64,000 nucleotides of DNA. It comes from Saccoglossus kowalevskii (Eukaryota; Hemichordata; Enteropneusta; Harrimaniidae). The position numbers and the translations under genes are program-made. Position 1 is the stretch's first letter. Every line of letters begins with the position of its first letter. The stretch is from assembly GCF_000003605.2 (NCBI RefSeq), contig NW_003119427.1, positions 456,206 to 520,205 on the forward strand, given 5' to 3'. Positions 1 to 55,500 of this stretch are shown here, piece after piece. The notes beneath the pieces were generated by a model that saw only the letters and a list, made by a program, of their open reading frames with translations, was not told the DNA's origin and made no database searches.

Positions 1-83
1 TTTCCTTTATAAATAGTAAACTATTTTCAGATTTATTCAGAGATTACTTCTAAATCGAAATCATTTTGTTTTGTTGTTTCCAG

Positions 84-641
84 TTGACCTTTTATTACCA
101 TATGTGGGGCGAACATTTAGGATTATTTAGTGTATACACACGGACTGAAATCAACGGACCGATGAAGCATTACTGGTCTTGGGCAGATAACATTGGAGAT
201 TACTTTGTCAGAAAGAGTATGATGTTGTCAGAAACCAGCAACTTTCAGGTACGTACCACTTAAAGTAGACTCACGAGATTTACGGTCACGCGTGTAGCTG
301 CGCTGTAGTCAATTTGTCACACTTCCTAAATATTAATCGCATGAACATTATTATTTCTGATTAAATTAATTAAAACCGATGGTTTTTCTCCTTACTGCAG
401 ATTGTTTTTGAGGTTATTATTGGTGTGGGTCTTAAAGGTGACGTGGCTCTTGATGACATAATAGTAGCACCTGAGTGCCTGGAATATAGTGGCGATCTAC
501 CCGTTGGTGAACCAGAACCAACGGAACCATCACCATGCGATGCAGGATACATTCATTGTGGCGATGACTACTGCATACCAATAAATGAGATGTGCGATTT
601 CAAAGAACAATGTCCCAATGGTATCGACGAACAAGTATGTG
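84..641 (+). CDS. Gene A: C-terminal part of MAM 5 plus LDLa
   Basis: Exon 84-248 (phase 0 to 0) encodes the FYYHMWGEHLG strand region and a TRTEI segment shared with gene B exon 23254-23418, which is also 165 nt. Exon 401-641 begins with the last MAM strands (GDVALDDI), then a Pro/Glu linker, then an LDLa with six cysteines, CIP after Cys3 and acidic residues before Cys6 (GIDEQVC). The acceptor for 401 is CTTACTGCAG and the donor at 642 is GTATGT. The N-terminal half of this MAM lies before the window. Numbering follows gene B. Confidence 0.88.
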
Positions 642-15425: not shown

Positions 15426-15994
15426 CGAGAACAAAACCGTTGTATCTCTGTCCGTTGACATCTGGAAGATAATTATGTATACGTTATGATGGAAAAATAT
15501 TTTTGGGGGAGGGGCGAAGGTATGTATCATTGATCTAAAATGTTCATTCGAATAAAAAATATACTCACCCCAGCATTCGATTTACCAAAGCTGAAATGGA
15601 ATAAAAAAAAAGTCTTAAAAACGTCTTAAAACAGTAAAAGTTTGCACGAATCGTCACATTAATTTAAAAAAACAACAATAGTAATTCATACCTGATATTT
15701 TGAATAAATGACGGAATGACAGATTTTTGTTCTCGTCTTCTATAATAATACCACAAACCACAAAACACTGTTATCACCACGGCCACCAAAATGATGCTGG
15801 CAAACACGATAGCTCCGACACCTAAAACGAAATGACAATAGTTAGGGTGCGTTTCTTTGAATGGTAGATACATAAATTCACGACATCTTCGAAGTATCAT
15901 ATGTATCGCAAATTATATTCGGTTGGTAGGTACTTACTGCTGGAATCATTGTCCTGCTCTTGTGGGGGATCTGGATAGACTGGCGACACGTAGT
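15426..15994 (-). CDS. Gene B: stalk, transmembrane helix and tail exons
   Basis: Exons 15938-15994 (acidic, Pro-rich stalk), 15692-15821 (about 22 hydrophobic residues from GAIVFASII, then WYYYRRREQ), 15569-15590 (22 nt) and 15426-15461 (DRDTTVLFS). The third exon replaces the 73-nt gene A exon that carries NPGY, so the motif is absent here. The exon that supplies the stop codon after GTACGT at 15425 was not found. Confidence 0.8.
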
Positions 15995-24900: not shown

Positions 24901-27900
24901 TAAGTAGCCAGGTGCTCATGAGTATATAGTGAGAAGAGTATTCTATTGTGTTCAGTCTCGGTTGCAAACAACTCACGATATATTTTTCATTTTTATAAAT
25001 ATATAGTTTTCTTAATATGGATGACGCCGGACGCCCACCCCTAGTACATCTGACATTGCGTCGGGTACAGGTTTCCAGATGTTTTTCTCCCTTGACTGTT
25101 TTTTTATATCTGTTTTTTCCTAGGCGGTCGATGTATTCTCGATGGGGCTTTGGCATCCATTTCGTGTATATTTACATATGTAAGAGGGGGGGGGGGGTAA
25201 ATACACGTTGTAATAAACGCGTGTGACTCATGGGTGCTGTAACCAGCGCATATCGCATTTCATGCTTGTTGTGTAATTTGTATGAATAATTGAAGTTAAG
25301 TATAGATAGACTTCTTGTGACCATACTATTCATCAGTGCATACTTTGCATAGGGCGAGGGTATACAATCATCCTACATGCATTTCACACGTGTTAATAGA
25401 ATTTGTTATGCGTAATTCACATCCGAAAATTTCCCTTCGTTTACATCATACACAAAAGCAGCATAAACGAAAACGACCGTAATTTCAAATACTTTTCGAT
25501 TGTAATTTGGCTTGTTCTATCTCACTAGATTATGGCTACAATTAGAAAAAAATATAAGTATTAGTTTACCACTATAATATCACAATGTATAAATCCATGC
25601 AGTCCGGGGGTAGCATAGACACGATCGCCACAATGATACCTCCGGGCATAATAAAGTGCTCAGTGACCCTTAGTTGCATATACTAGTATACACGACGTAC
25701 CTGGCAATGCACAGTTATGCATGATAATATCATCGATTGCTATGTCTCCTTCCTCTCCAAATGAACGATCGCATCTAAAGAATAACTAAGAATACAAACG
25801 TATAACATTGATATACGTTGCGATTTATTTATCAAAGTGATTACACTGCTCATGCGCCACAGATTCGCCCGCACATTCCCCAGTTGCCAAAACAATGTGA
25901 TCTGAAGCATCCAATTTCATGAGAAAAACTTGCTGTTCTATATTAAGTGATAAATATTTTGCAAAATAGCTTTCTCTATTTCTACTTAAAATTGATGATA
26001 ACCAGCGGCACACTTTAATACAATCCATCTAGTTTCTGTGAGTTAAATGGTTGTAAGGAAAGTCGTTTAAACGCAGGCATGGTTTTAAACTAAAATCGAC
26101 GACAGAGAAGAAGCTCATCGCTAAAGGACGGTACATTGCAAATATTAGACGCTTTGTGAATCGTACTTGCCAGTCTGTGTATATGCGACCAATAGGAATC
26201 CAAGCCTGGTGCCATTCATCGCCTTGGTTTTCCTGAATTATCCATAATCTGGTTTCCAAACCATTTTCCAATATGAAAGCTTCCAACTTGCCAATATCTG
26301 TACATGAATCAGTCAAGAATTATCTAACAATAACAGTCAAACATGTACATTGCTGATACAGTCGTTATATAACCTTAACAACATTATGAAAACACGGTAA
26401 AAAAGGAAAATGTCAGTGGAAAATAAGTAAAAATGTCTCGAAAACAAATCACAGTTAAGTCATTACAATTCTTTGTTATTAACAGCTTAAAAATATATCG
26501 AATTTTTTTTAAAACTTGATGAAATAAAATAGCATGTACTATATACCGGTACATATTTTTTCATGCAGTTCATCTTATTTCAGTAGGTGTTCATAAATAA
26601 GTAACTTGTACGAGGTTCACTGTCATATTTATTTTAGAAAATGGGGCGAAGTATTCTTTGTGACATGGTTTAGGACAGCGACTTTTTGTCTGTGTCTCTT
26701 TCTTGTACCTTGTTGTTCTTACAATATAGATATAACACTGCAAATCTCTACATGGTTGTATTTATAGTTTCTTCTCGCTAGCTTCCACTACTATGAACGG
26801 CACAGAGACACACGTCAATGCTACTCACATTGCACATTGTACTATTATATACGTATTTCGAATTTTACAAACACAACCGTACCTGAGCCAAACATATGGT
26901 AATAAAAGACGACTTGACAGGTGGAATGGCATTCGCGCACTAACGGTCCATCTAAGGTTGCGGCACTGACGAATCCACCTTTGGTCGATGCTGCCAGCAT
27001 GTAGTAACCTGCAATGATATTGACATGCAATTGACGAGAGCTCCCAAATTAAACAGCAAATCGCGTCATCGTCCGCATACATAATTCTTCGAATATGTTC
27101 ATATAATATAAAAAAAAAACTTTCATACACTATGTATAAATTTACGTTCAATTGATCAGTGGCCCGGTTAGTGGCTCCTAAAATTAACCTTTTATACACA
27201 AAACACATCTTCCATTGCTGTATTTCTTCTATTGATGTAGTGGTTCATCCAATCGGTAGGTATATATATATGTATCGGTATAAGTCGGTAGAATCACGCG
27301 TGAGTTTGTGGGGGTTGCGGGGTATGCTTACATCGAATTTACAAAAGCATGCTACGAGTATTCAGATGATGACGAAAACACGAAACATTGAGACTACATT
27401 CTAGCAGTCTGTCTGCATGTCCGGTCAACGACTTACACCAGTTCAATCGACTCGATCTTCATGTGAGTTACCTGGTTGTTCTCCGCTCCATGTATGGTCA
27501 TGTGAAGGACCAGTGTTTGGAGTCGGTGTCGGTCCGCTCCATCTCTCCCACCTATATTCACCTCGACTGTTGTCATTATATTCACATGTACCATTTTCAA
27601 ACGTACATTCCCCTGTTATTAAAACAAACGAATAGACTTTAAAAATGTAGTAGATGAATAATTGTATTCTTTTGTAATTGTATGTATCGAAGAATTGTTT
27701 TATTGCAAATTATATATTGTTTATTATTTATTATTCGGTTCTTCTCTGTACATCCAGGTGCAAAGTTCAACCGGTCACGTGATTGATAGGTAAAGACAAA
27801 TCATTTTTGAGGCTTCAAATTGGTACTATGAATAAATTAAAAGGAATGTTCAGTAATATTTGGCGAGCTTCTAAAAATGTTTTACTAGTATTTCAAACTT

Positions 27901-28201
27901 GACTGGGTGGATTATTATCTATAATTCTCACCGCTGTTTCATGTATTTCGCATGTATGACATTTTTATAAATCCATTAACCATAGCTAAGGATTTCATAA
28001 AGTAAAATGACCATTATGATCAACATTAGCCATGAAAGGTCTTACTACTATAGTGTACTATCGGGGCCAAAATACAGCAATACTGGAAGAATAAATAAAA
28101 AAAAAAAAAATAAAAAAAAAAAAAAATAAAAAAATAATAATAAAAAAAAAAAATAATAATAATAATAGTAAAATATAAATAAAAAAATAATAAAAAAATA
28201 A

Positions 28202-28300
<99 letters not shown>

Positions 28301-31300
28301 AAACATGAAAGAATAGATAAATGAATAAAACAATGAATACAAACGTATAAGCATAAATAGAAACATAAAATAGTGATTACAAGAATAAAAGAAAGAATAG
28401 AAAAATAATTAAAAGCATAGAAGATAGNNNNNNNNNNNNNNNNNNNNNNNNNNNNNNNNNNNNNNNNNNNNNNNNNNNNNNNNNNNNNNNNNNNNNNNNN
28501 NNNNNNNNNNNNNNNNNNNNNNNNNNNNNNNNNNNNNNNNNNNNNNNNNNNNNNNNNNNNNNNNNNNNNNNNNNNNNNNNNNNNNNNNNNNNNNNNNNNA
28601 TAAATAGAAACATAAAATAGTGATTACAAGAATAAAAGAAAGAATAGAAAAATAATTAAAAGCATAGAAGATAGAAAAATAATTCAAAGTATAGAAGATA
28701 ATCAAGTAAATCATCGTTACTCGGCAACGAGGCTAAAAATTAAACCGCCGTTGCTTTGCACCGCGGCTTAAACTTTAACCTCAACCTTTAACCCCAAAGC
28801 CACAACGCACGTGGGAAAAAAAATGTTAAGAGAAGTTCAGCGTCAGCAGTGAGGTGGTGATCACTAGGTATTCATGCAGTTGAATTGGAGATTATGAACT
28901 TCTGTAGATATGCATAGTGTGATATTAAAATGACATAAAAGTGACACCAAAACATGACTATAGAGTTCTATGCATACATCTATAGTGTGAATGATAATTA
29001 GACGTCGTTGCACATTTTGATTTTGATCAATAACATACAGTACAACTAACCACAGTTTAGCTCGTCTGATGCATCAGGGCAATCGACAACCCAATTGCAC
29101 TTCTCTTCAGAGGCAATTTCAGTACCATTACTGCAAGTAAAATTGTAGCTTGGTGGATTACAGCTGTAGTTAAACATTTTGGTATCGTCTATGGCCAGGT
29201 CACTAGCGAATTTGGCGTCAACTTCACCTTCTATCGCAATCTGAATCAACAAGAAATTAAAGTTATATATCATTAGCATATTTTTAGATTAATATTGTAC
29301 ATTGATGTAGCTACGCCATTTTAGCGATTTTGGTACAACGCCAAACCACAAATAACTTTACCTTGAAGCAGTGTTAACAAATACATTATTTTCAGCAGTT
29401 AAAAATGCAATTCGTTGGTGAAAAATCTAAAATATAGTTATCCCAGTTTGAAGCCACGGTTGCAATAAAGGCGTCGTGTTATATACAAGCCCGTGCAATA
29501 TATCCAACGCGTGTAAAACATATTGTTTGTCTTCACATACACCGAACACGCTGCGCAAAAAGAATGTCGCTCTAACTTGAAAAAAAGTGATGCACATACA
29601 ATGTCGAATAAAACTACAGTTACAACATGTCATGTTAAACTCTCAAACTTGTCAAAGGAATTGACAAATACAGTTCGAATTAGGGATCCCGAGAAAACTA
29701 TTCACCTACTTAGCGAGTATATTTCACTTACTCTGAATGCTTTGGTTGAAAAGATATCAATATACTGTTCTTGCCATCGATCACCTTTGTTTTCACTATC
29801 CCGCCATAATTCTTGCTCTGTTTCGTCTGTATATTCAATAACGATCTGACGTAATAATTTGATATCAATGAAAATATTAATTCAAATGATGATGCAAATT
29901 ATCGATAATCATACTGAAACCAAAATATATTGAGAGAATCATTTATCTAGCGTTGTTTTGCGACAATAATTACGACTGATGACTGGTCTAATCCGGAAAT
30001 TATTTTGGTCTTTAATTATTGTCTGGGTCAGATATGGTCACGTGCATTCAATTTGCGACAGTATTACGGCTGCACTGAGATGAGAACGTGTATATTCATT
30101 TTATTACATATGGCATTCAATAGTCCAGATACATTTTTTGTTGAGTAGTGGTTTTTAGACATTGACTTGTTTGTGTTTTTCGTCTCAATAAATCAAAACT
30201 ATTTATAGCTTTTGACGTGTGGTAATTCTGTGATGAAGTATGCTATTTAAATGTCAGTAGCTGCGAGGGGTGTTGATAACGAGTTACACGCTAACCTATG
30301 CGCTCTTTCATTAGCATGCATTACTCAAAACTGAGAGAATACAGTTGATTTAGAATTATTCAAGTTATATCGATTACCATTTAAATTTTTGTATTATTGA
30401 ATCACTACACTACAACAGGGGAGACTTATTGATCGTCGATGATATATTCAACATCCTGGAACGAAACATACCCGGATGGTGCCAGGCGATTCCTCAGTCA
30501 ACCCATACATATGATAATAAAATAAAAAGCAGTAATTCTGGTTCGGCATGAATACTTCAGATACCAGCCGGGCTTTATCGCCGGATGAACTTGGCGGGCC
30601 ACTCTCAATGAACATGTACCAACCTACAATTGAAAATAAAGCAACGATTAGGTATTCCAATATATGGTAAATAATACAATATGTCTCTGTCTCGCCCAAG
30701 CTTAAAGCTAGTGACAAATAAAACAGCTTCAAAACGGTTATACGCAAAGAGAAGTATGAAAGAGAAGGAAAAAAGTGAGATAACAGGGAAGAATGTGTTC
30801 CCTGAGTTGAAACGCACCGTGAATTGATCCAGTTGTATGATCCTTGGTTGGACCACTTAGGTATGGCAGAAACGATGTCGAACCACTGTACCTTATCCAG
30901 TCAAAATCATCGTAGCCAACATTGGTCCAGGTACACATGTCATATTCAAAGTTGCAGGTTGCTGAAGTACAACATTATATATATATATATATTAGGTAAA
31001 CAATCAATAAATCTCTTGTAAAGCCCCACATATATCTATTACTACGTTGTAACGAGTTCTTAAAACACTATTTATTTGAATTTATTAAAACAATTAATTC
31101 TGATTTTCAGCGAACACGCTTTATTATATATAGTATATATAAATATTTTGGTTGATCTCTATTATGTGGGTGTCAAGCCCCACGTTATTCTGCGTGTTGT
31201 TGTTTTGTCGAATTTATGCATTAATTTGTTTTCCTATCGTTTAAGCCAAGTATATGAAGTATTGAACAATTTACCGTGAAGCCCAGTGCAACCGCCAACG

Positions 31301-34300
31301 GGGATGTTCACACTAATGTCGTCGAGCGATATATCATAAACTCCTTGCTGGTCGACGGATCCTTCAAACACCACTTGATACTCGGTTTGGGGTATGAACT
31401 CCGCAGATGCGATGTGCCAGAAACCACCCTGGTCGTACTCTGTCTCCCATATAGGGGTGCCAAGATCGTCGTTTTCTTTGATGTATACTGATAATGTAGC
31501 ACCCCCGCTGCCACCTATATGAGCAACATGTGTATTCGCAGAAACACTCAATGACATTTCAAATATTCTAGGGGATGATTTTATTTGGACACTATTCCGT
31601 ATAACATTCAGAAACATTCATCTTAAACCGATATGGTCAATACTCAATTTATATGGGTAGCTAGAGTAAGCCAATAGAAACTCGCGTCTGGTTCATTAAA
31701 TATACATAATTTATTCACACAGCAAGTGTACGCCCCAAGCCTATTTCTATCTTCCTGGGCAGACCTAACACACATGAGTTCGTAACGTTGTTATTTTATA
31801 ATTTAACAAACAATTTAACTAAATATAAATATTAGAACTACAACTATCACATCATATATACACACAGATAACAGTTGGACAATGGTTTAAACAAATCACG
31901 ACATTTGGCTGTAGTTATTCATTAAATCAAAACTGAATAGACCAATTGCGAGAAAATGTGTGTGATTTATCCCGTGTCCACAGTAGGCTAAATGAAATAA
32001 GAGTGTTTCATGTTTCACAAATTCTCTTCTATTGAGGTCAATCTACGTGATTACAATACAACTTGCCTAGTAGTAATAATTTGAAGTGAAGGACATACTA
32101 CCGTATTTTCGAGTGGCTGAATCGGTATAAAGCAATTAGGGAACTTTCACACACAAAATCGTCAAATTGCATTCTATCAACTAAATTATGACACGATATC
32201 TTTCAGTGTTAGATCAAACTGTTCTGCTGGTAAAATGTGTCTCGCGGTATTTATGTCGACGTCGGGATCGGCTCGTCATTCACTCATTTTTTTTTTGTAT
32301 TCAATTTACTGATGCATAATTTACTCTGAAATAAGAACAATTTATGTTAATTTATTTGGTTGTTGTGTGCATACTTACCGTGTATATAATACCAGAACTG
32401 CAAACAGGTTGACTCATATAAAGAACTGCTGTATAGAGGACTCAGAAGTCGTGCATATTTTCCCGTCTCCATTCCATTGGTATCCATATACACATAATTC
32501 CCTATACAAAATATGAAGAGTGGATATTAATTCTCAACTAAAGTTCAAATTGACGTGTTTAACATATACATTAAAACCTGTGCCATTCCACTCTGTCTTA
32601 AGGTGCTTACCTCACATGCTATGGCTTTGACTGTATAATACATAAAATAAAACATATCACTAACAAGTCTTCCATTCAACTCTCATACACTAAAACTTCT
32701 GTTGCAGTCGCACCTCTATGTCTCCACTACAGCGTATCTTATGTGATGTGTTCACCTGTGCACCTTTAGAGATAAGTCTATAGGGTTTCCCACTTTGTAA
32801 CTTGAAATATTTGACCCTGGAAAACTCTAGATACTTTAACGCGACAGTATGCCTACAATTTGCAAATTCTACCCCAAAATATAGCAATCTGCTAACGCGA
32901 TGTGCAGTGGTTGTGATAATGACCGAGTAACCCATTAACCTTACCCTGTGATGTTCCAGTAGAATGATCATAATCAGGACCATTTACGTGATTGTCGGCT
33001 TTTGTCCTGTTCCATTCGGCGTCTGCATTCTGGTCATTGGTGTATTCACACACACCATATTCGAAATCACAAATATCTAAGTAGAACAAAAAATACAGAT
33101 TGTGTATTTGAATCATATGAATATTATGCTTTCTTGCACGTGATCGAACTTCGAAATATATATAATAGATACATTTCATTCGCAGTAATTCTTAATATAT
33201 TATATTAAATGTATTCCTTAACCAGAATGCACTGCGTCTCGTATTTCATTTACGTGTAATATCAACAGAATCACTTATTTACGACTCAGAATGTTTCGGT
33301 ATATTTTGAAGTTTGTTTTCTAAAACATGGCGAACTCATGGTATCTTAATATTAAGAAAAACAGAAATACCCAGCGGTGGACAATCGTCTTCGTCGTACA
33401 CGATGATATCATCCAGAGCTACAACGCCGATGTTCAACAGCGTGGCTCTGGATTCGATAATGACGTTATAGGTACCAGTTTCTTCGATATGTACTTGGGC
33501 GTAATTCCAGTTAGAACCAACATTACCACTCCGAGACCAGATGCTCTCATGTACTGTCAAATAATATCATATCATATCATATCAATATCATATTCAATAA
33601 AAAAATACATACTGCACATTTATGAAAATGTGAGTAACATGTAAATATATCGCACACATTTGTTCACACATATGCTGTGTGTTTCTAAATCATATATATC
33701 GACGGTTTAAAGTCACGATTTCGATCGTATATATTAGAATGTACTAATGACACCATGCGTGTTGTCCTGCTCCTGTTATATGTATAAAACGTATACATTG
33801 GTTATGCAAACAACATGTCGATTTCTCAATATAATGTAATACTGATAATATTTACAAACTTACTCATCTGACCTGTATCAAGTAGTACTGAGAGTGACCC
33901 CAGACTACTACCATACATATGGTACCAGAATGTCAGACATTTTGGTCCGGTCCAAGCAGGATTCGTGAGGCTTGCTTGAACGTTCAACCCAATGTGAAGT
34001 GTTTGCTGTACATATGCGTACCAACCTGTAAGCGACAACAAGGCGATGTTACGACGTCACTATGCATCTACTCTACCGTTAGCGTCCGAGTATTTCATTT
34101 TAGTACTTTACTGTGAACGATTTAAATATTTAAAAAGACCTATAGAGGGCGTTTTAAGATCCCACGTGGGTGATCCCATTGTATATATTTTTTTAATTAA
34201 AAACACACTGTGAATATCTTTATTCTTTGAGCATATTAAAATAAGTTCTTGAAAAAAAAATATGGTATGATTTATGGTACAAAATAATGTTTTTGACTGT

Positions 34301-36828
34301 AAAATATTGCATATTATTCAATAAAATACTGAAAAGCCGAATTCGAATACTTGTATATATAGGTATAGCCGTATTTTATTTTATGAACAATTATTTAAGG
34401 TAGAGTTGCAGTTTACCTGACAGGTATTTTAATTAGTTAATTAGGAAACCAAGATGACCTCCCTTGTCCACAAAACTATATATTTTCGAAAAGCTTATTG
34501 TATGAATTTTAAAGTTTTGTGAGTATTTTATTTTTATGGACACTGTAGTTTGAAATATGCACAAAAATGTGCTTTTTTGGTCAAAAGTGATTTAAAAAAA
34601 AAAGCTTCTAAACCATGCTTCTGTTTCTTGTCAAAGTGGTTTATTGGTACATCTGTTTACTATGAAGAAAGTGCCGTCTTGAAAACTGTCTACCAGTTGT
34701 CAATTTTGTAGGGCAGGAGCTCAAATTTCACTACTTCAAGTTTATGCGTAAATTAACACACAGGCTAGTTGTCTGTACGATTGCTGTAATACTATTAAAC
34801 TAAAAACAATGCCCCGACAGTTCTGGAATGTGCACTAAAAAGAAGCTAGGATAATTGCTAATTTGCATAACAATTCACTCAGTAAGAAGTTTGCTCATGC
34901 TCATAATTAAAATGGCTGTTACAGTTTCAAATTTAAATGTATTATCGTTTTGTAAAAAGTTAAATACAGTGCATATTATGGATATACCGTCATTTCTTTT
35001 TATCACCATGTTTTTTTTATTATTTATGTATAGCCTTGCTAAATCTTACTAAGCATTCAAAAGAAATAATGTTTGCACCTGTTATTTATATTTTGAAATC
35101 GTGTTTTGAGTATGTTCCACTATTAACAATTCTACAAAATTTCAACAGTCTATAGCGAAGACTTTTTGAAAAATAATAAGCAAAAAAAAAATTTCTCTCT
35201 CAAGTGTCCACGAACCTGCATCTCTACCTTAAGCAAGATGCAATATAAACAATATTTAAACAAGCTCATTATTACTTGTCATTCGTATTATCTTGTTAAA
35301 CCTCTCTCTATAAAAAAAAGTGTTTATTATTTTTACAGAATTTTGTTTACTGGGGTGATTTAGCTTTCAAACGTCAGTTTCCCAGCATATTCTTTAATTG
35401 GTATTGAACTAAATAATTGTTCTTATCCAAAATTTTACTTATTATTATTTTTGCTCAGAAACACACGGGGCAGATGATTGACACTTGAAATATCTGACAC
35501 GATGTCTGACAGGTGTAATAACTGAAATGTTTGGTTGTTCTAACAACTATTTTTGACAGAAAGATTACTAATCGCAACTCATGCCTTAATTAGTTATTGA
35601 TATGTTATGAATTCCAACGTATTGTGCGTAAATATATCACAAACACTGTACAACAGTTACTACTTAGTTTATATGATAGGAAATCGTTGTTTCTTGACAA
35701 CTCAAATCATGAACAATTTCTGTTCACCATACATAATACAAAAAAAACAAAACATCAGTGTCCTTTAGATTATTATATTAATTTAAGGCGGGCTAGTTAC
35801 TTACCTTCCTGTGTGCCAGTGGTATGATCGGCTGGCGGTCCAGTTTGCGTTCGGAGTCCAGTCGATCCTTGCTCTCGTAGCCATTCCTCGCCCGCTTCTG
35901 GGTCATTCATCCAGGAACAAAAATCGTTCTCGAAATCACAATCATAAGGACCGTTTTGGCTTGTTACTTCGTAAGCTGGTGGTGAATATTAATTAGCACA
36001 TTAATGCAGCAGAACACATCAAGAAGAAAATATGTTAGTTACACCTGACTAATGTTCATAAACGAACTCATCGAATGGCACCTACACTGTATAAATCTCA
36101 CGCCGTTCATCGTAACACTAATTCCAAGAAAACGACCACCATTATTCTCATTGCCCGAGATACTATCGGTAGATCCGTGCAGTTAATCGTTATTCATTTA
36201 ATGTCACATAGATACATGTTCTTAACCACTCAGAGCAAACAGAGCTACCGCAATCACTTCTTAGAGTACTACTATAATTATTACGATTTATTATTAATAT
36301 GCAAGTTGGCATTGTATTTGACTGTTATAGCAAGTTCCAATCGTGGTCAAGTTCAGAAATTTTAGTTGGAAGACAAGTATGTTGGAATATAAAACAAAAC
36401 GCCGAGTACCCACAAATCTATAAACTTAGAGATAGGAAATGTCGAGGCGTTAAATAACAGTGTTTGTTTATCAATCATTAACATTAATTGCGTGATTTAG
36501 GTTTATATGTACCCTGACACTGATACGAAACATCTGACTCATCAGACAAACTATTGAATATTCAAAGCAGGGTTCACAGGTAAACCAAATACCAACGGAC
36601 ACCGAATATTTTACAGTGTTTCCTGTTAACACGTATTATATTCAGCTATAACAATAATAAGAACGAATGAGAGACGTGTGGGCATTCACATTATTTGAAG
36701 GCATACGATTTTCACGTATTGTAATAATTTTGCGGTAAATGAGAATCAACTTAAATGTAATCATAACTGTTCTAACCTGGTATCGTTAGAAGCACTAGCG
36801 CGAACCAAACTGTGTGCACACTAATCAT
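15426..36828 (-). CDS. Gene B: nine-MAM, three-LDLa type I membrane protein
   Basis: Near-complete spliced gene on the minus strand. Exons in transcript order: 36777-36828, 35805-35975, 33864-34025, 33371-33553, 32945-33076, 32379-32501, 31275-31514, 30818-30961, 30472-30623, 29732-29845, 29051-29240, 27472-27612, 26883-27008, 26167-26297, 25701-25785, 24401-24523, 23712-23953, 23254-23418, 22906-23161, 22282-22416, 21810-22075, 21566-21683, 21035-21190, 20335-20588, 19549-19639, 19107-19445, 18070-18222, 17477-17617, 17236-17361, 16175-16396, 15938-15994, 15692-15821, 15569-15590, 15426-15461. They sum to 5178 nt (1726 codons) with phase kept throughout. Order: signal peptide, MAM1, MAM2, MAM3-LDLa (four-cysteine), MAM4-LDLa, MAM5-LDLa, MAM6-9, stalk, TM, tail. 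It is tail-to-tail with its paralogue gene A and head-to-head with gene C. MALRD1 and MAMDC4 are the nearest known architectures. The final coding exon after 15426 was not identified. Confidence 0.9.
16175..17617 (-). CDS. Gene B: MAM 9
   Basis: Exons 17477-17617 ([19 protein letters not shown]), 17236-17361 (FYYHMYGD) and 16175-16396 ([25 protein letters not shown]). This is the membrane-proximal MAM and is collinear with gene A 6346-7334. The intron 16397-17235 holds nothing recognised. Confidence 0.9.
18070..19445 (-). CDS. Gene B: MAM 8
   Basis: Exons 19107-19445 ([12 protein letters not shown] to WEKS) and 18070-18222 ([13 protein letters not shown]). The first exon runs straight through the point (after SDG) where gene A and most other modules have a phase-1 intron; no splice sites are seen there. 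The intron 18223-19106 contains a dispersed repeat at 18481-18675. Confidence 0.9.
18481..18675. repeat. Dispersed repeat, copy 1
   Basis: Starts TGTAAATGCATTAATTATTC and ends in an AAATAGTGAAATTAAATGTC segment. The same start, middle (GTTTCCTTGACAAATT) and end recur at 43212-43404. No coding capacity. Probably a short non-autonomous transposon or SINE-like element. Confidence 0.7.
19549..21190 (-). CDS. Gene B: MAM 7
   Basis: Exons 21035-21190 ([19 protein letters not shown]), 20335-20588 ([18 protein letters not shown]) and 19549-19639 ([13 protein letters not shown]). The lengths of the second and third match gene A exactly (254 and 91 nt). Confidence 0.9.
21566..22416 (-). CDS. Gene B: MAM 6
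   Basis: Exons 22282-22416 ([12 protein letters not shown]), 21810-22075 ([19 protein letters not shown]) and 21566-21683 ([21 protein letters not shown]). A phase-0 intron of 126 bp (21684-21809) separates GWR from FDVE; gene A lacks it. There is an extra cysteine (RCC) just before the FYYHM strand. Confidence 0.88.
22906..23953 (-). CDS. Gene B: MAM 5 plus LDLa
   Basis: Exons 23712-23953 ([17 protein letters not shown], to NCK), 23254-23418 ([10 protein letters not shown]) and 22906-23161 (GDIALDDI, Pro-rich linker, six-cysteine LDLa). Unlike the other modules, the N-terminal half is a single exon ending in phase 0. Gene D exon 60393-60637 has the same plan, so this is an old feature of the module. 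The acceptor of the first exon is the TAG ending at 23954; the nearer CAG does not keep frame. Confidence 0.87.
24401..27612 (-). CDS. Gene B: MAM 4 plus LDLa
   Basis: Exons 27472-27612 ([19 protein letters not shown]), 26883-27008 ([15 protein letters not shown]), 26167-26297 ([11 protein letters not shown]), 25701-25785 (GDIAIDDI) and 24401-24523, a six-cysteine LDLa ending [10 protein letters not shown]. The CHSTC pair before the YHM strand recurs as CSSTC in gene D. Long introns 24524-25700 and 26298-26882 hold nothing recognised. Confidence 0.88.
28086..28310. repeat. A-rich and (AAAT)n simple repeat
   Basis: Poly-A with interspersed T, followed by about 100 bp of nearly pure AAAT units (about 28199-28301), in the gene B intron 27613-29050. 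Confidence 0.95.
28428..28599. other. Assembly gap (172 N)
   Basis: Run of N inside a gene B intron. The 75 bp on its left (28353-28427) and right (28600-28674) are identical, so the gap may be false. Confidence 0.95.
29051..30961 (-). CDS. Gene B: MAM 3 plus four-cysteine LDLa
   Basis: Exons 30818-30961 ([21 protein letters not shown]), 30472-30623 ([11 protein letters not shown]), 29732-29845 ([10 protein letters not shown]) and 29051-29240 (SDLAIDDT, then LDLa). This module carries an extra phase-0 intron after the GTIR strand. The LDLa has only four of six cysteines: those normally numbered 1 and 3, which pair with each other, are missing, while the acidic [11 protein letters not shown] end is kept. 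Gene D has the same loss at the same place. Confidence 0.87.
31275..33076 (-). CDS. Gene B: MAM 2
   Basis: Exons 32945-33076 ([22 protein letters not shown]), 32379-32501 ([10 protein letters not shown]) and 31275-31514 ([24 protein letters not shown]). The hallmark reads ISLDDI instead of IAIDDI. Gene D exons 51935-52084, 52232-52357 and 53220-53474 match it. The introns hold no other recognisable exon. Confidence 0.87.
33371..35975 (-). CDS. Gene B: MAM 1
   Basis: Exons 35805-35975 ([22 protein letters not shown]), 33864-34025 ([15 protein letters not shown]) and 33371-33553 ([21 protein letters not shown]). The first intron, 34026-35804, carries the TTAA-flanked element at 34395-35232. 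Gene D exons 50516-50701, 51093-51248 and 51622-51804 are the counterpart. Confidence 0.88.
34395..35232. mobile_element. Second TTAA-flanked inverted-repeat element
   Basis: TTAA at 34395-34398 and 35229-35232 flank inverted ends: GGTAGAGTTGCAG on the left and the complement of GGTAGAGATGCAG on the right. About 830 bp, AT-rich, no transposase frame. It shares the GGTAGA terminus with the element at 13586-14145 and lies in the intron before gene B exon 33864-34025. Confidence 0.7.
36777..36828 (-). CDS. Gene B: signal-peptide exon
   Basis: Begins ATG at 36828 (reading down) and encodes [17 protein letters not shown], with a hydrophobic core typical of a secretory signal. It ends in phase 1 at a GTTAGA donor. 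The next exon starts AYEVTSQNG, so cleavage near that junction is plausible. The start is chosen because it is the only methionine ahead of a hydrophobic core that joins in phase to the first MAM exon. Confidence 0.85.
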
Positions 36829-39103: not shown

Positions 39104-42100
39104 ATGGATAGAAACTCCTGGACGATATTTTGTCTTTTGCTGGCGGTTGTAGGTGAGTAATTACCGGGGCCGAACCCGTACTTACGAAGAAGAGTGGTAC
39201 GTGGTGCGTCTTTTGATAATCAACGCAAACAACCATGTCAACACGTCTCTACATTCCAAACAGGAACCGGTTATCACTAAACTATTCAACTATGGGGTGT
39301 AATTATACCAGTTAGAAAACTTGAATGTAAAAACGTATTCACAAATAAGTGTGGCGTATTTTACGTATATTTTTAAATATTTATCATGATACGATTCAGA
39401 CACCTGTTGCGCTGTACACACGTATTCCTCTGATGAATATATCTTATGAACGATGACGGCGACAGTTCGTGACAGATATCAATGCCGCCGGGGTCATGTT
39501 GGTTAGCCGTGGCAGGCAGACGAGGACTGTACTGTACATATATGTACAAATACAAGTTCACCCATACAGCTGACGTTATAGTTATACCATTTCATGTCAT
39601 TTTACGTTTTCTTTATGGATTTTTTAAAGTTATTCGAAGTTATTAATTGTGTTGCCCACACTTAAATAGCTGTTGAGTTAGATGTAACATTGGTCGGATA
39701 CGCATCACCAAAACATATAAAACTAGGTATGACTGGTTTCAGGTCAAAGGTTGAATAATATGCCATCCACCAAGAGAACATATTTTCTTACTTTTTGAAG
39801 CAGTTTAGAAACGACTACACTACTCATACATTTCAGAGATTATGTGAAATGTCCGTGTAGTGGGCTTTGTCACCATAGCAAGCATAACATCCAGAACACA
39901 CCAGATACTTGCTCCACAACTGTTGCCATATTTACAAACTGAATTGAGAAATGAGACGTGACGTCACATCCGGTTATCCACTTGTTATTAAACTTGTTAC
40001 AATAAATAGAAAACTAAAATTCAGCTAATACTGTAATAATATGAACTAAAATACGAAGGCAAAAACGAAGCTGGTATCAGCTAATACAAAAGTCATGAGA
40101 CTAAAATAAATACTGTCGTAAATAAAATAATAAAAAACGGACCAACCTTTGTTAAAATACAATTCAATGTCTCAGTAACATTTTTTATGAATTTAGCCAT
40201 TAGGATGAATAGTGGAAAGTTCTTTTATTATTTCAGTCTAGCTGATTGCTACTTGCTAATTATTATACAATTGTTCATCGTCAGTTCTGAAAATTTTACA
40301 CATATCCTTTTCTCTTCTGGGTTTGTTTAAGCTATATGTTTAATTACGTAGTAGTAAGATCAGTTTAATTTGTAAGTCTGTAAGTCATCTAAAAACGCAT
40401 TCACACTTACGAACACCATGTAATTCAATACTTCAAATTATATTTAAGTCATAAATAGATTCAATTAATGGAGTGTGATACATTAGACACAAACAGCATC
40501 CAATAGAAAACCGGCATTTCTGAATTAGTTCACAAAGTACTATGTAGATGAGACAGAGAAACTAAGAGACCCATGACCATACTGGTATTACACACATTTA
40601 GAGATCACGGTGCACTGCACACCATTGCGCAATATCAGATACACCAATTAGTAATATCATGCGAATACATTTCCGGCCCCCTTTAAGAATCAAAAAGACG
40701 AATACAATTACTAAATTGAAAATAATAATATAATATGAAAGTAGGACCTATATCAACGTACTTTGTACTTAGGAAGTTTTTTTAAACGTAAATTCAGACT
40801 TTGTCTCCAACGTTAGCGTAGGGTATATTGTATTTTAAGATTAATTACAATATTCTATAGCAAACTTCTGTCTTTGAGGGGGTCCTTGTCCATGATATAC
40901 ATAACACCCCGGATGTACGAATAACACACATGGCCAATGTACACTGCACGTGTTGTACACATGAACGAAAATGGCCACCACATTGTGTAGTTGTTTGTGT
41001 TTTCACTTAAATTTACAAATAGTCAGTTATCAAACTCAACGCAAACAATCGTAACAGCGAATAATATTGATGTTAATCAATGTAATGGTGAGCATGTTTC
41101 AATGTTATTCGTTTACAACATATCTCGACCTTGGTTTATTTGTTAACTTCTTTTAATAATTGATTGCCAACTACTGTATAACCATTAATCTCTATATAAA
41201 CAACCACATGTCAGTACCACACACCTACTGTGTTATAACGTTTGTCGATAACCTAAGGGGTACCATCAACAGTTCAGTGCAGGATAAACAATTTATTTAT
41301 ATTTAGTTTTACTTCCAGCATCCTCACCCCCTAACTCACGTGTATTTTAAGATTTCAAAATGTATTATGCAATTTTGTTTTTAATCGTTCATATTTGTTT
41401 TAATTGAAGTTGAAGATTGTAGAGAGCAAAGTGCTGTTCCACTTCATATTGAGTTGTATCTTGCATATTGAATGTCATTATAGGGTGTATACGTGAGAAT
41501 TAAATATATTATTAATATGATTATTATATATATGTCAGGTACGCATCACAACAGCTTGGATACAATTGATCTAGTAACACGTAGTCAGACTGGTTTGGAG
41601 GTCAAAGTTCAACTATGCATATATAGCCTTGACGCCATAAATTGTTAATTTAGGAGCGCATGCCTTTGTTAGAATTACGTTCCAGAATTATGTAATGCCA
41701 TAGTGATATGAGACAGTGTGGTGCGTATGCGTAATATTCGTCGGCGCAAGTAAGGTACATTTCACAGACTATGTGTATTAGTATGCGATCATGATTTCAA
41801 TGGCATTAGTCATGTGATACGTGACAATTATATCTTTCATCACATTTTGCAACGAATTTAACTTGTTAAAAAAAATTGGAGACTGAGATTATATCCGGAG
41901 TGACAGTAGCAATATCGTTGTTTTCAGGGGTCAGACTATTGTTTTTAGGTCATCGTCATAATTACCATAAATTCCCACTACTGCATGGAAACGCATGCGC
42001 ATTAGCGGCTTGCAGGCTTAATTTGTATTGTGTAACCTATTAACGATCTGTTTGTTTTCATATGTGCAGCGGAAGTATCTACACAATGGAATACAACACA

Positions 42101-43950
42101 GTCAGAAACAACATTTCCGAGAACAACGCCATTAGATTCAACAACAGAAGTAACGACAGCATCACCATCAACACAGAAAACACCACCACCATCAACGACA
42201 AAAACAACAACAACACCAACAACACCAACGCCACCCAAAAATACTTCACATACAAATGAGACAACAACATTTGAGTCGTCTACTATTGAATATTCAACCC
42301 TGAACACTACGCAACCAGAACAATCAACTAATGCTACCAAAGGCACACTGAAAACCACAGAAAGCACTGACTATCATAATTCAACCGTCACCGAAGAATA
42401 TCTATCTACCACTAAACCGGCATCGGACGAGAGTACTCCATTCAATGGTAAGAAATAAAACCACTCATTTTTGTTATTATGTGAATAACTAACGTGTATC
42501 GTACTTCATGTATACATGACTTATGATTATTTACTGTGATTGTGCTGGGAGTAAAATCTATATATTCTAACTTGTTTAATTTAATTTAATTTTAAACACA
42601 ATCTACTAACACGTGTCTTTGTTTGTTCGATACGATTGTAGAGGACGAAGATGGCGAAATAGGTGAGAACAATTTACATCAGATACGTGTTTACGTGAGA
42701 ACGTTTTTGTTGTTGTTGTTATTGCCGCTGTTGCTACTATTATTGATCGCATTATTCAATTGCTTATTATATTTTACAGTTTCCAAGTATTTTATTGCTG
42801 CACTTGTTGGTGCAGTTGTGGTTGTTATAATTATTGCTGTTATTCTGATTGTTCTCTCAAGAAAACGCCTTGTCAGCAGGTATGTCACAACCTCCCTCTG
42901 AATACCGGGTAATCATTTATGAGCCGTATGTTTATAACCAAGTCCATTTATACGTTTTGTTTGTCATTCATTTTAGCCGATTTCGACGTCTTATCGACGA
43001 TAATGAAACTTTAACAAGAAACATGGAACATTATGATTTCGCTGGCGATTCGGAACCCGCAGAGGTAGGTTTCAATACAATACAGTGCAGTGCTATGCGA
43101 TGCGCCATACGATGTAATACGACAGGGTACGATACACTTACAATACAATGCAATGTACCATCCTATGAGAGACGATATGATAATGATGCGAGTGATCATA
43201 CAACAGTAATGTTGTAAATGCATTAATTATTCACTTGGTTTAATTTAGCTACAAGTATTTCCGTTGATAATTAAAATCCTCTAAATTAAACGAACGTGAA
43301 CCTGTAAAATAACAACAAAACTCATTGTTTCCTTGACAAATTTGTGAAATTAAAACTAAGTAAATTTGCTAAAAACATCAAAATAGTGAAATTAAATGTC
43401 ACAGTATATATATATATATAAATATGCTGGTATTTGTAATTAGCTGAAACCTGAATGAGTGTTTACGTTGTAGCAACATTTCTGACAGAGAACGTCACAG
43501 TCTTATAATTTTACTTTTTTTTTTATTAGATATCAATTAATAGCGGCGGTGATGCCAGGGTCACTATAATGGACGACGATGATGTAGTCGGGCGAGTCAG
43601 GTTCGATGTAGTAAGTAACCGTATTCAACTATTTAACTGTAGTCTTTCATTAATGAATTTTAGTATTAGGTTTTCACCCTAAGTTGCTTGTTTTTTAGAG
43701 CTAGTTGACATTCAATGTGAATACGCACATGTCACATTAACGACGATCAAGTCGACGTACGAGTGTAATTATTTACGCAAAGCTCACATTCTTGCTCTGT
43801 TCCGTTCCTGATATGAGATATGACAATTATGAATACGACGTATCATGGTCATGTGAAACTTAAAATGATGCGAATCAAGTTCATTATTTTTCATTTCAGA
43901 GCCAGCACAGAGATCATCGCGGCGATGGACGCGGAGAGTCCAATGCTTAG
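39104..43950 (+). CDS. Gene C: short mucin-like type I membrane protein
   Basis: Seven exons: 39104-39152, 42070-42447, 42642-42662, 42780-42879, 42977-43064, 43530-43610, 43900-43950 (TAG stop); 768 nt, 255 residues, phase kept throughout. Exon 1 encodes the signal peptide MDRNSWTIFCLLLAVV. Exon 2 encodes about 126 residues dominated by Thr, Ser and Pro, with six N-glycosylation sequons and no cysteine. Exon 3 is an acidic spacer (EDEDGEI). Exon 4 encodes a strongly hydrophobic helix from FIAALVGAVV to LIVL followed by SRKR. The last three exons form an acidic cytoplasmic tail of about 70 residues. A heavily O-glycosylated, rod-like cell-surface stalk is the natural reading. Exon plan and phases match the first and last exons of gene D, so it is probably a family member without MAM or LDLa modules. 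Intron 1 is 2.9 kb with no recognised exon. Confidence 0.82.
43212..43404. repeat. Dispersed repeat, copy 2
   Basis: Second copy of the 18481-18675 element, same orientation, inside a gene C intron, diverged by substitutions and small indels but collinear for about 190 bp. Confidence 0.7.
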
Positions 43951-43984: not shown

Positions 43985-43990
43985 AATAAA
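43985..43990 (+). other. Candidate polyadenylation signal of gene C
   Basis: AATAAA 35 bp after the gene C stop codon. The 3' UTR would be very short. Confidence 0.5.
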
Positions 43991-49459: not shown

Positions 49460-49508
49460 ATGACGAAGAACCTTAGAATATTGTTGACGGTATATTGTGC
49501 TATATCTG
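49460..49508 (+). CDS. Gene D: signal-peptide exon
   Basis: ATG at 49460 encodes MTKNLRILLTVYCAIS, a typical short secretory signal, ending in phase 1 at GTGAGT. The exon is 49 nt, the same as in gene C. It joins in phase to AYIEPV of the next exon; gene B also has alanine-tyrosine there. Confidence 0.85.
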
Positions 49509-52500
49509 GTGAGTACTATTTGTATATTTAGAAGTGTGGTCAGAAATATACTAAATTTAGAGGCAAAACTAAACACATCAACATTTTTATTTTATCATTT
49601 TACCCGAGAAACCAAAACCAAAAGGAGTGTTATCGTTTTGTGAAGGTCATTTAGAGTATATACATTACACATTTAACATTCGTTTCATATCCATAGCGGA
49701 AACAGAAATTTCCTTTCATTGAAACAAATGAATATTATTCGTCAGAATTCCACAATAATTCATGACAACCACAAGTACTAAGTATCTCATATGACTATAT
49801 GATACATTGATTTTTTCGAATGAAATTTTGGGATCTGATATTTATCGTAGAAATCAGTTGTCACTGGCTGGAACATCATCGTTTATTTACTACGAATTTA
49901 CACATATTTTGTAGGAAAAGTATTTCGCGTACTTATATTTTAGTTTTGTTTTGTTTTGTGAAAACATATTGTAAAAAGCCAAGGAAATTCGAAATGTTTT
50001 ATTGGTCTTCAACTACTTTAAAGCAGTTCACTGAAAATGCTTCATTAAAAAAATAATATGTTTTGTTAGAGACGCCCTAATCTGTAATCTGTAGATACAT
50101 ATAGTGAACACACATCTCAAATGTATTGACCGTTTAGCCAGCATACAATTAGCTGTGAGGGGATTCCCCTAAGTCGACGGGACAATGTTGTGATCACCAT
50201 GTCGTTGATACCGAACTCATATTACAATGCACACAAAAATATTCAATGCTGTATTTTAAATTGAGTTTATCGCTAACAGATTACAAATACCTTCATCAGA
50301 ATAAATATACCAGCAATTTATCAGTTAGATAGCAACATAGATAGTTAGATGGTACCGTGAGCACTGTTTACTTGGCAACTATCTTTACTCGAGAGACTCA
50401 TGTGTCTGAATCACAGATCCCAAATGAGTCAACAATTGTGTTTATTAGTAAACTAAATGTGCCCCAATATATGCGTGATAATTGAAATGAGATGCTCTTG
50501 AATTCGTTGTTACAGCGTACATTGAACCAGTTACAAGTATTGGAGCATCACTAGACTGTGACTTTGAAAACGGCGATGCATGTGAATGGACACAAGTCGG
50601 TGACGACGACGATGGCGGCAACTGGAATTTTACACAGGGTGCAGTGTACCCTATAGCGAGCTCGGGACCATCAGCTGACCATACATGGCAAACACAAGAA
50701 GGTGGGGCATTTCGATTATGACATGTAGCGTTGTTTGTTATAGCTAGGGATCTAGTTATATTTCGATATTAGAGAGATACGCACTAACTAAGCCAAGATA
50801 CAGGCTTAAATCTGTCGACTACAATTTTATTGCCGTCTTGAATACCGCCTGAGAGATTCATGGAGATGAGCGGGGACCTAAAGCCAATTAAAATGAAATT
50901 ATTGTATGTGATTTTTGATTAGACGATGCAAACATTTGAAATTTGCGTATTGCAAAAAAGTATTTTTACATTAGCCAACTTCATTTCGTCTTTTTTAGTG
51001 TTTTGATGGGTTATCCCCCACCACGGGAAGCATAACGCCAGTACCATGATTCAATTGTATCTGTTAAACATGTTTTTAAAATTAAACTACAGGATGGTAT
51101 GCATTCGTGGACTACAGTCCAGACCAGACCACACAGTCACCACAGCTTAAGAGTCCTACTATACGCAAACTACTAACTGGTTCATGTTTAACATTCTGGT
51201 ACCATATGTACGGAGAAATGCAAGGAACGCTCACAATCCTAGATGACTGTATGTATTACATATAAATTGTCAATGTGTATTGGCTCGTTAAAACGAAACG
51301 AAAGTTATGTACATATTTATTGAAAACGAGGGTGTCGTCACCTGCGCATGCGTCAGATGGCCATAACGTGTCATTGTTTACTAACAAGCGTCCACCCATG
51401 AGCCATTGCGTTTTAAGTGTGCGTTATTATCGTCGGTTTGAACTCAATTCCCGCGCGTGTGCAGGTGACAACCCCTCCACTTTAATTATGTGTTTGTTGG
51501 TTTGTTCGTTTATACACAAATAAATTACAATGTACAGTGGTATGCCTTGTTATAATGATATATAAACATAGATATTTAAAAATATTGTTTGTCTAAATTT
51601 TTACTTAATTTTTACTCGAAGCAAAAATTCTGAGCAAAATAGAATCTGTGACTGGCAACCATGGTTCAACGTGGAGATACATGCAGGTGTTTGTAACAAA
51701 TGAGATAGAACACGTGACCATTGAGGCCAGTGGCAGTGAAGACACATTGGGTGTTATAGCTATCGATGACGTAGTGATGTTGGATGGACAATGTCCATCA
51801 CTGAGTGAGTAACTAGAACTAATTATAACATACGAGCCAGGCTCTAGTGTAACACGGTTGACAGATTCGCTGCTTTTAGATAATGCGTACGTGGAATAAA
51901 ATGTAATTGCAATACTCGTTGTCAATGTTAACAGAGTTCTGTGGCTTTGAGCCTGCGTTGTATGGGGAGTGCGATTATGACGTTGGTGGCGAAGACTTGC
52001 CAGGACGCTTCAAGTGGGAGATGAAGGAGGCTGACAAGCACAAGGAAGGACCAGGATATGACCATACTTTAGGAAGTCAATATGGTAGGTAACTTCTGGA
52101 TGATTTGATCAACTCAGTACCGTTGTTAACGGCATTCATGCTGCCTTAAAACAAGTGATTGTCATCTAGTTAATATCGAAATGTATTTTTGAGTTTTTAA
52201 CAATTAGGTCATGCTATTTTTGACGTTACAGGAAGCTATATGTTTGCTAGTGTGACAGCAGACGGTCTGGCAGGGACACTGAAAGCACAATTGCGTAGCC
52301 CTACCTACAGTGAATTCGACACTTTGAAGTGCTTAACATTCTGGTACAATATGATAGGTTAGTATAATATATTATTATTATACCTCATAGCCCTATTCGC
52401 CAATCAGACTCGCGCATTTGGCCGTCGATATGTTTGCACCTGTCAACGGTCAAAGATGTTATACTAGGCGTCCGCGCTTGCGCAGACGTTCTGATTGATC

Positions 52501-55500
52501 TAACGAAATGCTGACTAACCGTTTTAAATTAATTTGTGAACAGGTAGAACAACTGTATCTTGGTATCTTGCTTTACTTGGACCGAGTTATTTTCTATGTG
52601 ATTACTTGTAACCAGGTGTAATCATGGAAAAACACGACTTGTTGATTTGACGATTTACGATTTGTTGACGTTGTATTTCGGCGTATAGTGCTTATATATA
52701 CTTCATCAAGTTGATTTTATTGCTTATTAAGTATCGTACACACATATGAGTTTAATTAATTGATTATTGAACCGGAATTGTGTTGTTATATTGCGTTTTA
52801 TTTAGGTCAGAGTAACTGTTTTGTTTGTATGCGTGCGTCATGTGTAACCATAGCAGCTTCTGAAATGTCAGCTAGTTCATACATAAACAAATCTTGCATG
52901 TAAATTTGACAATAATTTTGGAAGGGATTATGAAAAATAAATACACACGAACCAAAAACGACTACTTGAACATTCTGTATGCTGTCATTGAAAACTTTGG
53001 CGGCAAAGATTTCGCAATGCGGCCATTTACAAAATGTTTGTTTTATTCGATATAATAATACAAATATTGACCCCAATCGATCGATGTCGATATTGATAAC
53101 TTTGAAAACTTGGCAATGTACAACTTGCAGTGCTTTCTTTTACACTATATTCGGTAAATACAGATATTCGGGTTGTGTAAATATACCAAGGTGTCACTTC
53201 AATTTAAACTTCTTTGCAGAGGAAGATGATGGAGTGCTCTCTGTGTACGTAGATGACGGTAACTTGTTTGATGACCCATGGGAAATCTGGACCATGGACT
53301 CTGTAACGCACAACATATTCTGGAACATTGGCTACGCCGAATTTACACCATCTGCAGCCTATGAGCTGATATTCGAGTTCGAAGTCGATCGCGATATGAT
53401 AGGAAATACTTATTATTATGACATTGCAGTTGATGACATCATGATATCAGATGGAGAGTGCAAGGATGTGTCAGGTGAAGTATACTGCTTCTATAACTTG
53501 TTATGGTGTTCATTGTTCACTTATGTGACTTTTTCCGTGACATAACACTCCTACTTTGTTACGTTCTGGCATGGTATACGTCAAAATATGTACGTCATAC
53601 GTCATTGCCTCCTTTAATTTATCCCAGGCAGATTATATCCTGCTCTTGAGAAATCATACACTTATCATATACAAGTGAAAAAAAGCTGAAACTAGTAGAA
53701 CACTGTAATAACATACAAATGTCCATGTTTGGATATTGAATTTAGCTATTACTCAGACGACTACGTTCCATCGGCTCTGCATAACATTAGTCGTTGGTGC
53801 AAACTTTCCTTCAGGTTTTGGACGTAAAACTTGGGGATCTTAATTCTAAATTTCTACTTGTAAGGAAAAAATAACACAATTGGAACTATTTCGGAATAAC
53901 TGGATTCGCTTAAAATGTGTTACTGTGATGGTTTGTTTTCACAAAAATATTTTATTTGTTCGTTTTAGATTTTTTTCTGATAATTTCTTGTATTGATATC
54001 AGAAATGAGGAAATTAAGAACAATACTACCCTACAGGAGCACATTTTATGCGAATCCAATTATCTCGAAATAGTTCCAATTGTGTTAAATTCAATATGAT
54101 CCTCTGACAAGTGAGAGATTAATTTTACAGAATGCTGAAAAAAAGAAGATTTCTACAAAATGTGAAAAAGTTGTATTTTTTTAACAGCGGAGCTACTATT
54201 ATTTTGTACTCTCCTGGTCTTCAATAGAATACTTTGCTTTCTTGGGGTGGTACTACTTTTACTATTATATAATACTATTAACCTTCAAACATCGCTGTAC
54301 GTCATACATGTACTAAGCCTCAGTTCTTCCACCTATAGATTAGTTGCTCTCTGGGTGATAACACGTTCGTTATAACCAATGACGACTACTCGTAATATAC
54401 ATATCGTCTAATTATACCGTGCAGATCCCATACTATCAGCATGAATGTATAATTTGGCACCTTTTGGAAGTCATAAAGCATAAGGCCTAAACGAAAAAAG
54501 TATATTTCTGGTCAACTGAACAATATTTCGCAATTGGACAGCGCCCTCTGTACGACCAGAAATATTTGTTTTTGGATGTCTGTATACAAGCCACTAAAAT
54601 TAAACTAGCCAATCATAATGGGCATTGTATTATTTGTAAATGGAACTAAAGCTATCCAATAAAAAATTACTTCTCAATGATTTGCTCAATTTATAGTTTT
54701 ATATATCAACCTCAACCACGGTTACTAACTCCGATGGCAGCCCCATTCTTCAGGTCGAACGAGGACAATTATGAAGTAACTAGATTTGATTCCCAAAGGA
54801 TATCCCCGGCTTCAAAAGCGTGTGTATAATGCTCTGTCTTTTGAGAGAAATTTGCAAATAAATGTTTTTCCATGCATGTGGGATATAGGATGTAACAGAC
54901 GACCATCTCTTGGAGTTTCAGCTGTTTCACTTTCCGATCGTGAGATGATCAAAGTGACAAGTAATTTTACCCTCGTTCGACCTCATCAAAATGGCTGTCA
55001 CTAGATCCGGATAAAACAACTTCAACTTCATTTTTGACGCGGTTTTCGCGCTAGTTAGTGTTTGATAAACATACTGTCGATTGGTGATAGTTTCGATAAA
55101 AACGTTATTGCGTAATGTGAGGAAATTGTGTACGTTTATCGAGCGTTTTAAGCACATTTGAGCTATTCGAGTTTATGGGAGGAGCCATGGCTCTTCTGTG
55201 TCGGTACTAGTAACATTTCAATATCCAAAAAAAAAGGACACCAAATGTATCAGAAATGACTAAAATGCCATTACAAAGACAAAGGGCCGTTACGGAAAAA
55301 ACTATATGGATCCACAGCACACATATAATACTATATAATATTACACATTCTATATAATTTTTGTGATACTTTACTTTGTGTTGCATTATCGTGTGTGTAC
55401 TCTTGGGGAGTTCGTTTATACGTTTATAGCTGTCGTTATCAAATTATTTTATAGAATATGCATCAGCTATACTTCAATTGACAGAACGGTTGGCGTAGCT

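Follow-up and report, generated by a model that had tools for sequence, protein, structure and literature searches.

A probable small membrane mucin, gene C, in a cluster of MAM/LDLa receptor genes of Saccoglossus kowalevskii

What is a gene without a MAM or LDLa module doing between two genes for MAM/LDLa receptors? Gene C (39104-43950, plus strand) poses this question in a stretch of 64,000 nucleotides (nt) of the Saccoglossus kowalevskii genome (C1212:456206-520205, hereafter the window). An initial annotation, made from the letters of the window alone, took C to be a receptor that had lost its folded modules and been reduced to a mucin stalk and a membrane anchor. In our best reading, C is an orphan membrane mucin, perhaps one built on the exon chassis of the surrounding cluster. 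We put at roughly 0.65 the probability that C is a real, single-copy gene whose predicted product is a small, sialomucin-like type I membrane mucin acting as a spacer, shield or glycan carrier at the cell surface, which is an ordinary kind of protein.

The gene model consists of seven exons joined at GT-AG introns with consistent phases, and it encodes 255 residues without a frame break (Table 1). Its introns measure 2917, 194, 117, 97, 465 and 289 nt, the start codon has A at -3 and G at +4, and exons 6 and 7 are additions to the model in the initial annotation; within exon 6, a donor after 43607 would likewise keep the frame. The predicted protein has a type I layout in which a signal peptide is followed by a cysteine-free ectodomain rich in Pro, Thr and Ser (PTS), an acidic stalk, a single transmembrane (TM) helix and an acidic tail of ~75 residues, and it thereby combines the signal peptide, PTS-rich ectodomain and single TM segment by which membrane mucins are recognized. 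The ectodomain had been described as Thr/Ser-rich and free of Cys, and the 132 residues encoded by exon 2 and the stalk exon are indeed 32% Thr, 12% Ser and 10% Pro with no Cys, the sole Cys of the protein being located in the signal peptide. N-glycosylation sequons number six against 2.75 expected, a count reached in 61 of 5000 shuffles. No Pfam family scored above its cut-off in the whole protein, and the TM segment plus tail had no significant match in the PDB (best E-value 0.2). The Pfam scan gave no match to the SEA domain, and the repeat content of C is confined to a short imperfect repeat (42156-42229), with no long tandem repeats. Among the papers listed by literature searches on MAM/LDLa genes and their expansions, no title or abstract opening described gene C, which is not proof of absence.

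Scans of the surrounding DNA indicate that C is very probably a genuine gene, as far as its sequence can tell. In the scanned part of the contig, which runs from C1212:326206 to the contig end and covers 210 kilobases (kb), the TM exon of C was the most hydrophobic of 12 rows of TM-like exons, and in five runs of order-3 Markov sequence, the two strands of 210 kb together yielded 0.8 TM-like exons in phase 1, with no such exon 100 nt long. A scan for signal exons returned 39104-39152 as the only candidate around the start of C. A single one of the six frames stays open through exon 2, and none of 2000 random slices of local non-coding DNA was open in one frame over the same length. When exons were scored by the codon usage of the MAM domains of the cluster, exon 2 was the only candidate in its stretch, with a score of 9.5 (a MAM exon of gene D scored 18.0 for comparison), and two control stretches yielded one candidate, with a score of 1.9, and none.

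A profile search of the genome (572 Mb in 4830 contigs) found at least 156 MAM matches, a good part of them on C1212, where runs of MAM domains mark the gene or genes that end in E (on the minus strand, between 391.4 and 337.4 kb), as well as A' and A (both on the plus strand, A running into the window), B (minus) and D (plus). Pfam placed MAM domains above the cut-off at the positions of all five genes and LDLa domains above it in pieces of A, B and D; the LDLa domain of E fell slightly below (23.6 versus 24.1 bits). C lies within the 14.5 kb that separate the MAM domains of B from those of D, and its placement between two MAM/LDLa genes is as the initial annotation had it.

With the exons of the cluster genes assigned by eye and by splice signals, B, C, E and A' have a common 3' plan that comprises a phase 1-1 stalk exon, a phase 1-2 TM exon, a phase 2-0 tail exon, a phase 0-0 tail exon and a last exon. 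Gene A, in which a stalk exon was not identified, follows this plan from the TM exon onward, and D departs from it by one missing tail exon (0-0). Stalk exons measure 39 (A'), 57 (B), 21 (C), 27 (D) and 33 nt (E), and TM exons measure 145 nt in A and A', 130 nt in B and 100 nt in C, D and E. For A, A', B, C, D and E, respectively, the 2-0 tail exons are 73, 82, 22, 88, 103 and 76 nt long, and the 0-0 tail exons, absent from D, are 48, 63, 36, 81 and 36 nt long. The lengths and phases first reported for C and D were borne out: both signal exons are 49 nt long and end in phase 1 (that of D, at 49460-49508, is the better of two candidates and has the donor GTGAGT, as in C), and the stalk exons (62923-62949 in D), TM exons and 2-0 tail exons are as described. 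The lengths in A, A' and B and a 100-nt TM exon in a gene outside the cluster, on contig C2121, speak against a TM exon of exactly 100 nt as a mark of the family. The wider claim, that C shares the end exons of its neighbors in plan, stands for the phases and order found in B, E, A' and, from the TM exon, A, but falls one tail exon short for D. Extension of the plan to genes absent from the initial annotation strengthens the argument drawn from it. The candidate signal exon of A is 43 nt long, and A', B and E yielded no candidate in the signal-exon scan. In the 3' flanks of four more MAM loci (L029-L032), the search for a TM exon came up empty, so the plan is one that rests on the C1212 cluster; an Eph-receptor control (L045) gave none either.

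Among TM genes on other contigs, the C2121 gene has a TM exon in phase 1-2, the C446 gene has one of 129 nt in phase 1-1 (if GTGAGT is its donor), and in the C4441 and C2953 genes no intron separates the TM segment from the downstream sequence within the region read. The C2121 exon (C2121:62330-62560, L047) encodes a single-pass TM segment with CNAGCIAGC ahead of the helix, and C2121 had no MAM domain among the matches listed. Introns in phase 1 close to signal cleavage sites are described as general (PMC1626468). Taken singly, the phase-1 signal exon, the 1-1 stalk exon and the 100-nt TM exon are each non-specific and weak as traits.

The TM segment of C scored z 3.7 against that of A and 4.3 against that of A'. 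The corresponding scores of the outside TM segments were 6.4 and 6.2 (C2121), 5.6 and 4.3 (C2953), 3.4 and 2.4 (C4441) and 1.9 and 1.3 (C446), so the scores of C do not stand out, two of the four outside genes equaling or exceeding them and two falling below; the high scorers C2121 and C2953 may themselves be distant kin of the cluster. As proof of kinship, TM similarity could not be used. With short TM segments, the observed score was reached in 1 of 1000 shuffles for B and D, 41 for C and B and 143 for C and D; with longer segments, the counts per 1000 were 3 (A and C), 1 (A' and C), 25 (C and E), 25 (B and C) and 110 (C and D). The signal peptides of C and D gave 55 of 1000 and their mucin stretches 64 of 300. 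Against each of the five cluster genes, the tails of C scored no better than chance, as did those of D, for which tail 1 against that of A came closest to an exception (67/1000). An alignment by eye of MEHYDF in C with MDNPAF in E, which lie at equal distances from the exon end, was set aside as not significant (tail 1 of C and E, 382/1000). Judging from these comparisons, tails in this cluster change too quickly for their sequences to settle kinship. In genome-wide searches with TM segment plus tail, the query from A found A, A' and B, and that from E found E and a weak match on C2953. This C2953 match (C2953:397143-397349, L044) has a TM segment and tail in one frame, contains IDNPA and weakly resembles the tail of E (E-value 5e-4).

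Several points weigh against our reading of C and of its ties to the cluster. Exon 2 is compositionally simple, with 37 of 2000 composition-matched sequences likewise open, and the imperfect repeat lies inside it. The genome-wide search with the TM segment and tail of C found C only, a result that is neutral since the search with those of D likewise found D only. The outside comparison for the exon plan comprised four TM genes, one of which, that on C2121, also has a 100-nt phase 1-2 TM exon. B and D lack an NPxY motif too, so its lack is not special to C.

The initial annotation had named intron 1 as the place to look for relics of lost modules, and none that was convincing came to light. Neither a MAM domain, of which the MALRD1-like MAM/LDLa family has at least one, nor the LDLa domains of that family were found in C, the Pfam scan giving no match to either up to an E-value of 10. 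Between 36.0 and 50.5 kb, the best match to a local MAM profile had an E-value of 3.1. A tblastn search with 16 LDLa-like stretches, chosen by pattern, gave a single 10-residue match in intron 1 (E-value 0.017), which we judged to be chance, and the best tblastn match in intron 1 from 131 queries (E-value 0.008) was also judged to be chance; the frame in which it lies is hydrophobic and interrupted by a stop. A scan for hidden phase 1-1 exons in intron 1 produced two candidates, both scored below zero and neither plausible, and a genome-wide search found no copy of the intron elsewhere. MAM relics in C were thus rejected by the local profile, tblastn and the hidden-exon scan. In gene D, with boundaries read by eye, phase-1 introns flank the MAM and LDLa modules, and whole modules bounded in this way could be lost with the frame kept and no scar needed. 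Loss of such modules by C is therefore possible, and the same appearance would be expected of a gene that had never contained any.

Two accounts of the origin of C were weighed against this evidence. The one that survives better, plausible at a little under even odds, is that C, a small membrane mucin with no kinship to its neighbors, occupies a gap of the cluster by accident and agrees with them in phases because these follow the generic plan of type I proteins. The general occurrence of phase-1 introns in the vicinity of signal cleavage sites, the C2121 TM exon, the TM similarity of C in the range of outside genes and its tails at chance are all consistent with this account, as is the statement that most mucins arose independently, as "orphans" (PMC12776774). 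The agreement, however, spans the stalk, the TM segment and three tail exons in order, within a cluster that shares that plan, and the C2121 TM segment resembles that of A closely enough that C2121 is possibly no clean control. The other account, which is doubtful, is that C began as a MAM/LDLa receptor and, through deletion of the phase 1-1 cassettes that had stood between its signal exon and its stalk, retained the mucin stalk, TM segment and tail. The position of C within a tandem receptor cluster, the agreement of its exon phases with those of B, E, A' and (from the TM exon) A, the 49-nt signal exons of C and D and the mucin-like stretch that D also has (open reading frame 56406-58139) speak for it. 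Set against these are an intron 1 without a convincing relic, a TM similarity within the range of outside genes, tails at chance, the 43-nt candidate signal exon of A and the failure of the genome-wide TM-plus-tail search to find an intermediate gene. The descent proposed in the initial annotation is thus supported in part, by the place in the cluster and the phase plan, and the sequences of TM segments and tails do not decide it. For the five-exon 3' chassis by itself, the balance tips slightly toward common descent with the cluster. That C is no free gene at all, consisting instead of alternative 5' or 3' exons of a longer transcript or of a pseudogene fragment, is very unlikely given its own signal exon, stop codon and AATAAA, its seven exons without a frame break, and a next MAM gene that begins 5.5 kb downstream with a signal exon of its own.

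Table 1. Positions of gene C and of the neighboring receptor genes (window coordinates unless a contig is given).
Feature	Position	Strand	Details
Gene A, 3' part, MAM/LDLa receptor	54-11216	+	MAM pieces to 7345; TM exon 145 nt (9922-10066); tail exons 73, 48 and 9 nt
Gene B, MAM/LDLa receptor	15194-35988	-	MAM pieces 16128-35988; stalk exon 57 nt; TM exon 130 nt (15692-15821)
Gene B, tail exons	within 15194-35988	-	22 and 36 nt; last exon placed by acceptor only
Gene C, exon 1, start codon and signal peptide	39104-39152	+	49 nt, ends in phase 1; core WTIFCLLLAVV
Gene C, intron 1	39153-42069	+	2917 nt
Gene C, exon 2, Thr/Ser/Pro-rich mucin-like ectodomain	42070-42447	+	378 nt, phase 1-1; short imperfect repeat 42156-42229
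Gene C, exon 3, acidic stalk	42642-42662	+	21 nt, phase 1-1; EDEDGEI
Gene C, exon 4, TM helix and basic stop-transfer	42780-42879	+	100 nt, phase 1-2
Gene C, exon 5, cytoplasmic tail 1	42977-43064	+	88 nt, phase 2-0
Gene C, exon 6, cytoplasmic tail 2	43530-43610	+	81 nt, phase 0-0; contains RVRF
Gene C, exon 7, last coding exon	43900-43950	+	51 nt, stop TAG
Gene C, candidate poly(A) signal	43985-43990	+	AATAAA, starts 35 nt past the stop
Gene D, MAM/LDLa receptor	49460-63783	+	signal exon 49460; MAM pieces 50491-61281; stalk exon 27 nt; TM exon 100 nt (63199-63298)
Gene A, tail exon 1 with NPxY/F-type motif	10808-10880		DNPGY
Gene A', tail exon 1 with NPxY/F-type motif	C1212:435145-435226		DNPGY
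Gene E, tail exon 1 with NPxY/F-type motif	C1212:335548-335623		DNPAF

Other features were observed in and around these genes. As assembled, gene D contains an in-frame TAA (62757-62759) in its last MAM exon, upstream of the stalk, TM segment and tail; a pseudogene, a polymorphism and a sequencing error are possible readings. The Thr/Ser-rich stretch of D at 56775-57837, flanked by the end of a MAM domain and an LDLa domain, is a tandem array of 4.5 copies of a 234-nt unit with 87% matches. An exon after a MAM piece of D seemingly stops, by eye, before GCAAGT, suggesting a possible GC-AG intron at 60045-60056. The fifth intron of C contains a dispersed repeat (43213-43401); a copy at 18484 matches it with 81% identity, and two other places on the contig match it less closely. 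On the mitochondrial contig C4830 (L013), AAA occurs at conserved Lys sites and ATA at conserved Ile sites of COX1, COX2 and ND1; one AGA and no AGG were seen there, and COX1 lies on the strand opposite to ND1 and COX2, features that speak against an echinoderm.

Composition and layout suggest how a C protein would work. Its ectodomain would be densely O-glycosylated and form a stiff, negatively charged brush standing off the cell surface, and the protein would space or shield the membrane locally, or carry glycan ligands, rather than act as a receptor with folded modules. NPxY/F-type motifs are endocytosis or adaptor signals. Tail exon 1 encodes MDNPGY in A, IDNPGY in A' and MDNPAF in E, and C has MEHYDF there; lacking such a motif in this exon, C probably stays at the surface without rapid internalization. 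The RVRF in its tail resembles a PP1-docking motif, a four-letter match that means little. A more speculative picture, which we consider improbable, is that C is the shell of a receptor of the tandem MAM/LDLa array that lost every phase 1-1 binding cassette as well as the NPxY-type motif, and that it turned into a surface-resident mucin shielding or tuning the neighboring receptors on the same cells. If the chassis is shared, modules of class 1-1 would be swappable and a ligand-binding receptor could turn into a mucin within one locus, a route to mucins besides the gain of repeats. If it is not shared, the locus is a caution that end-exon lengths and phases of genes for secreted proteins are weak evidence of kinship.

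Mucin domains are not rare, one algorithm assigning them to ~2% of human proteins (PMC9209528). Like human MUC3A and MUC3B, as described in PMC9578598, C has a PTS domain encoded by one exon (exon 2), is predicted to be membrane-bound and lies in a gene cluster, but its PTS exon is only 378 nt long, with just the short imperfect repeat and no SEA match. MALRD1/Diet1 has nine MAM and nine LDLa copies (PMC8804323). The neighbors A, B and D are of this same MAM-plus-LDLa kind, and C shares the phases of their end exons without having either module. Small sialomucins need neither an SEA domain nor long tandem repeats, and endomucin, podoplanin and CD43 are, like C, type I proteins with a short PTS-rich ectodomain without a folded domain, a single TM segment and a short tail, a likeness that calls for no common sequence. 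Searches of Pfam and the PDB found no sequence relation between these small sialomucins and C, and C differs in its place in a receptor cluster, with a 3' exon plan like that of its neighbors.

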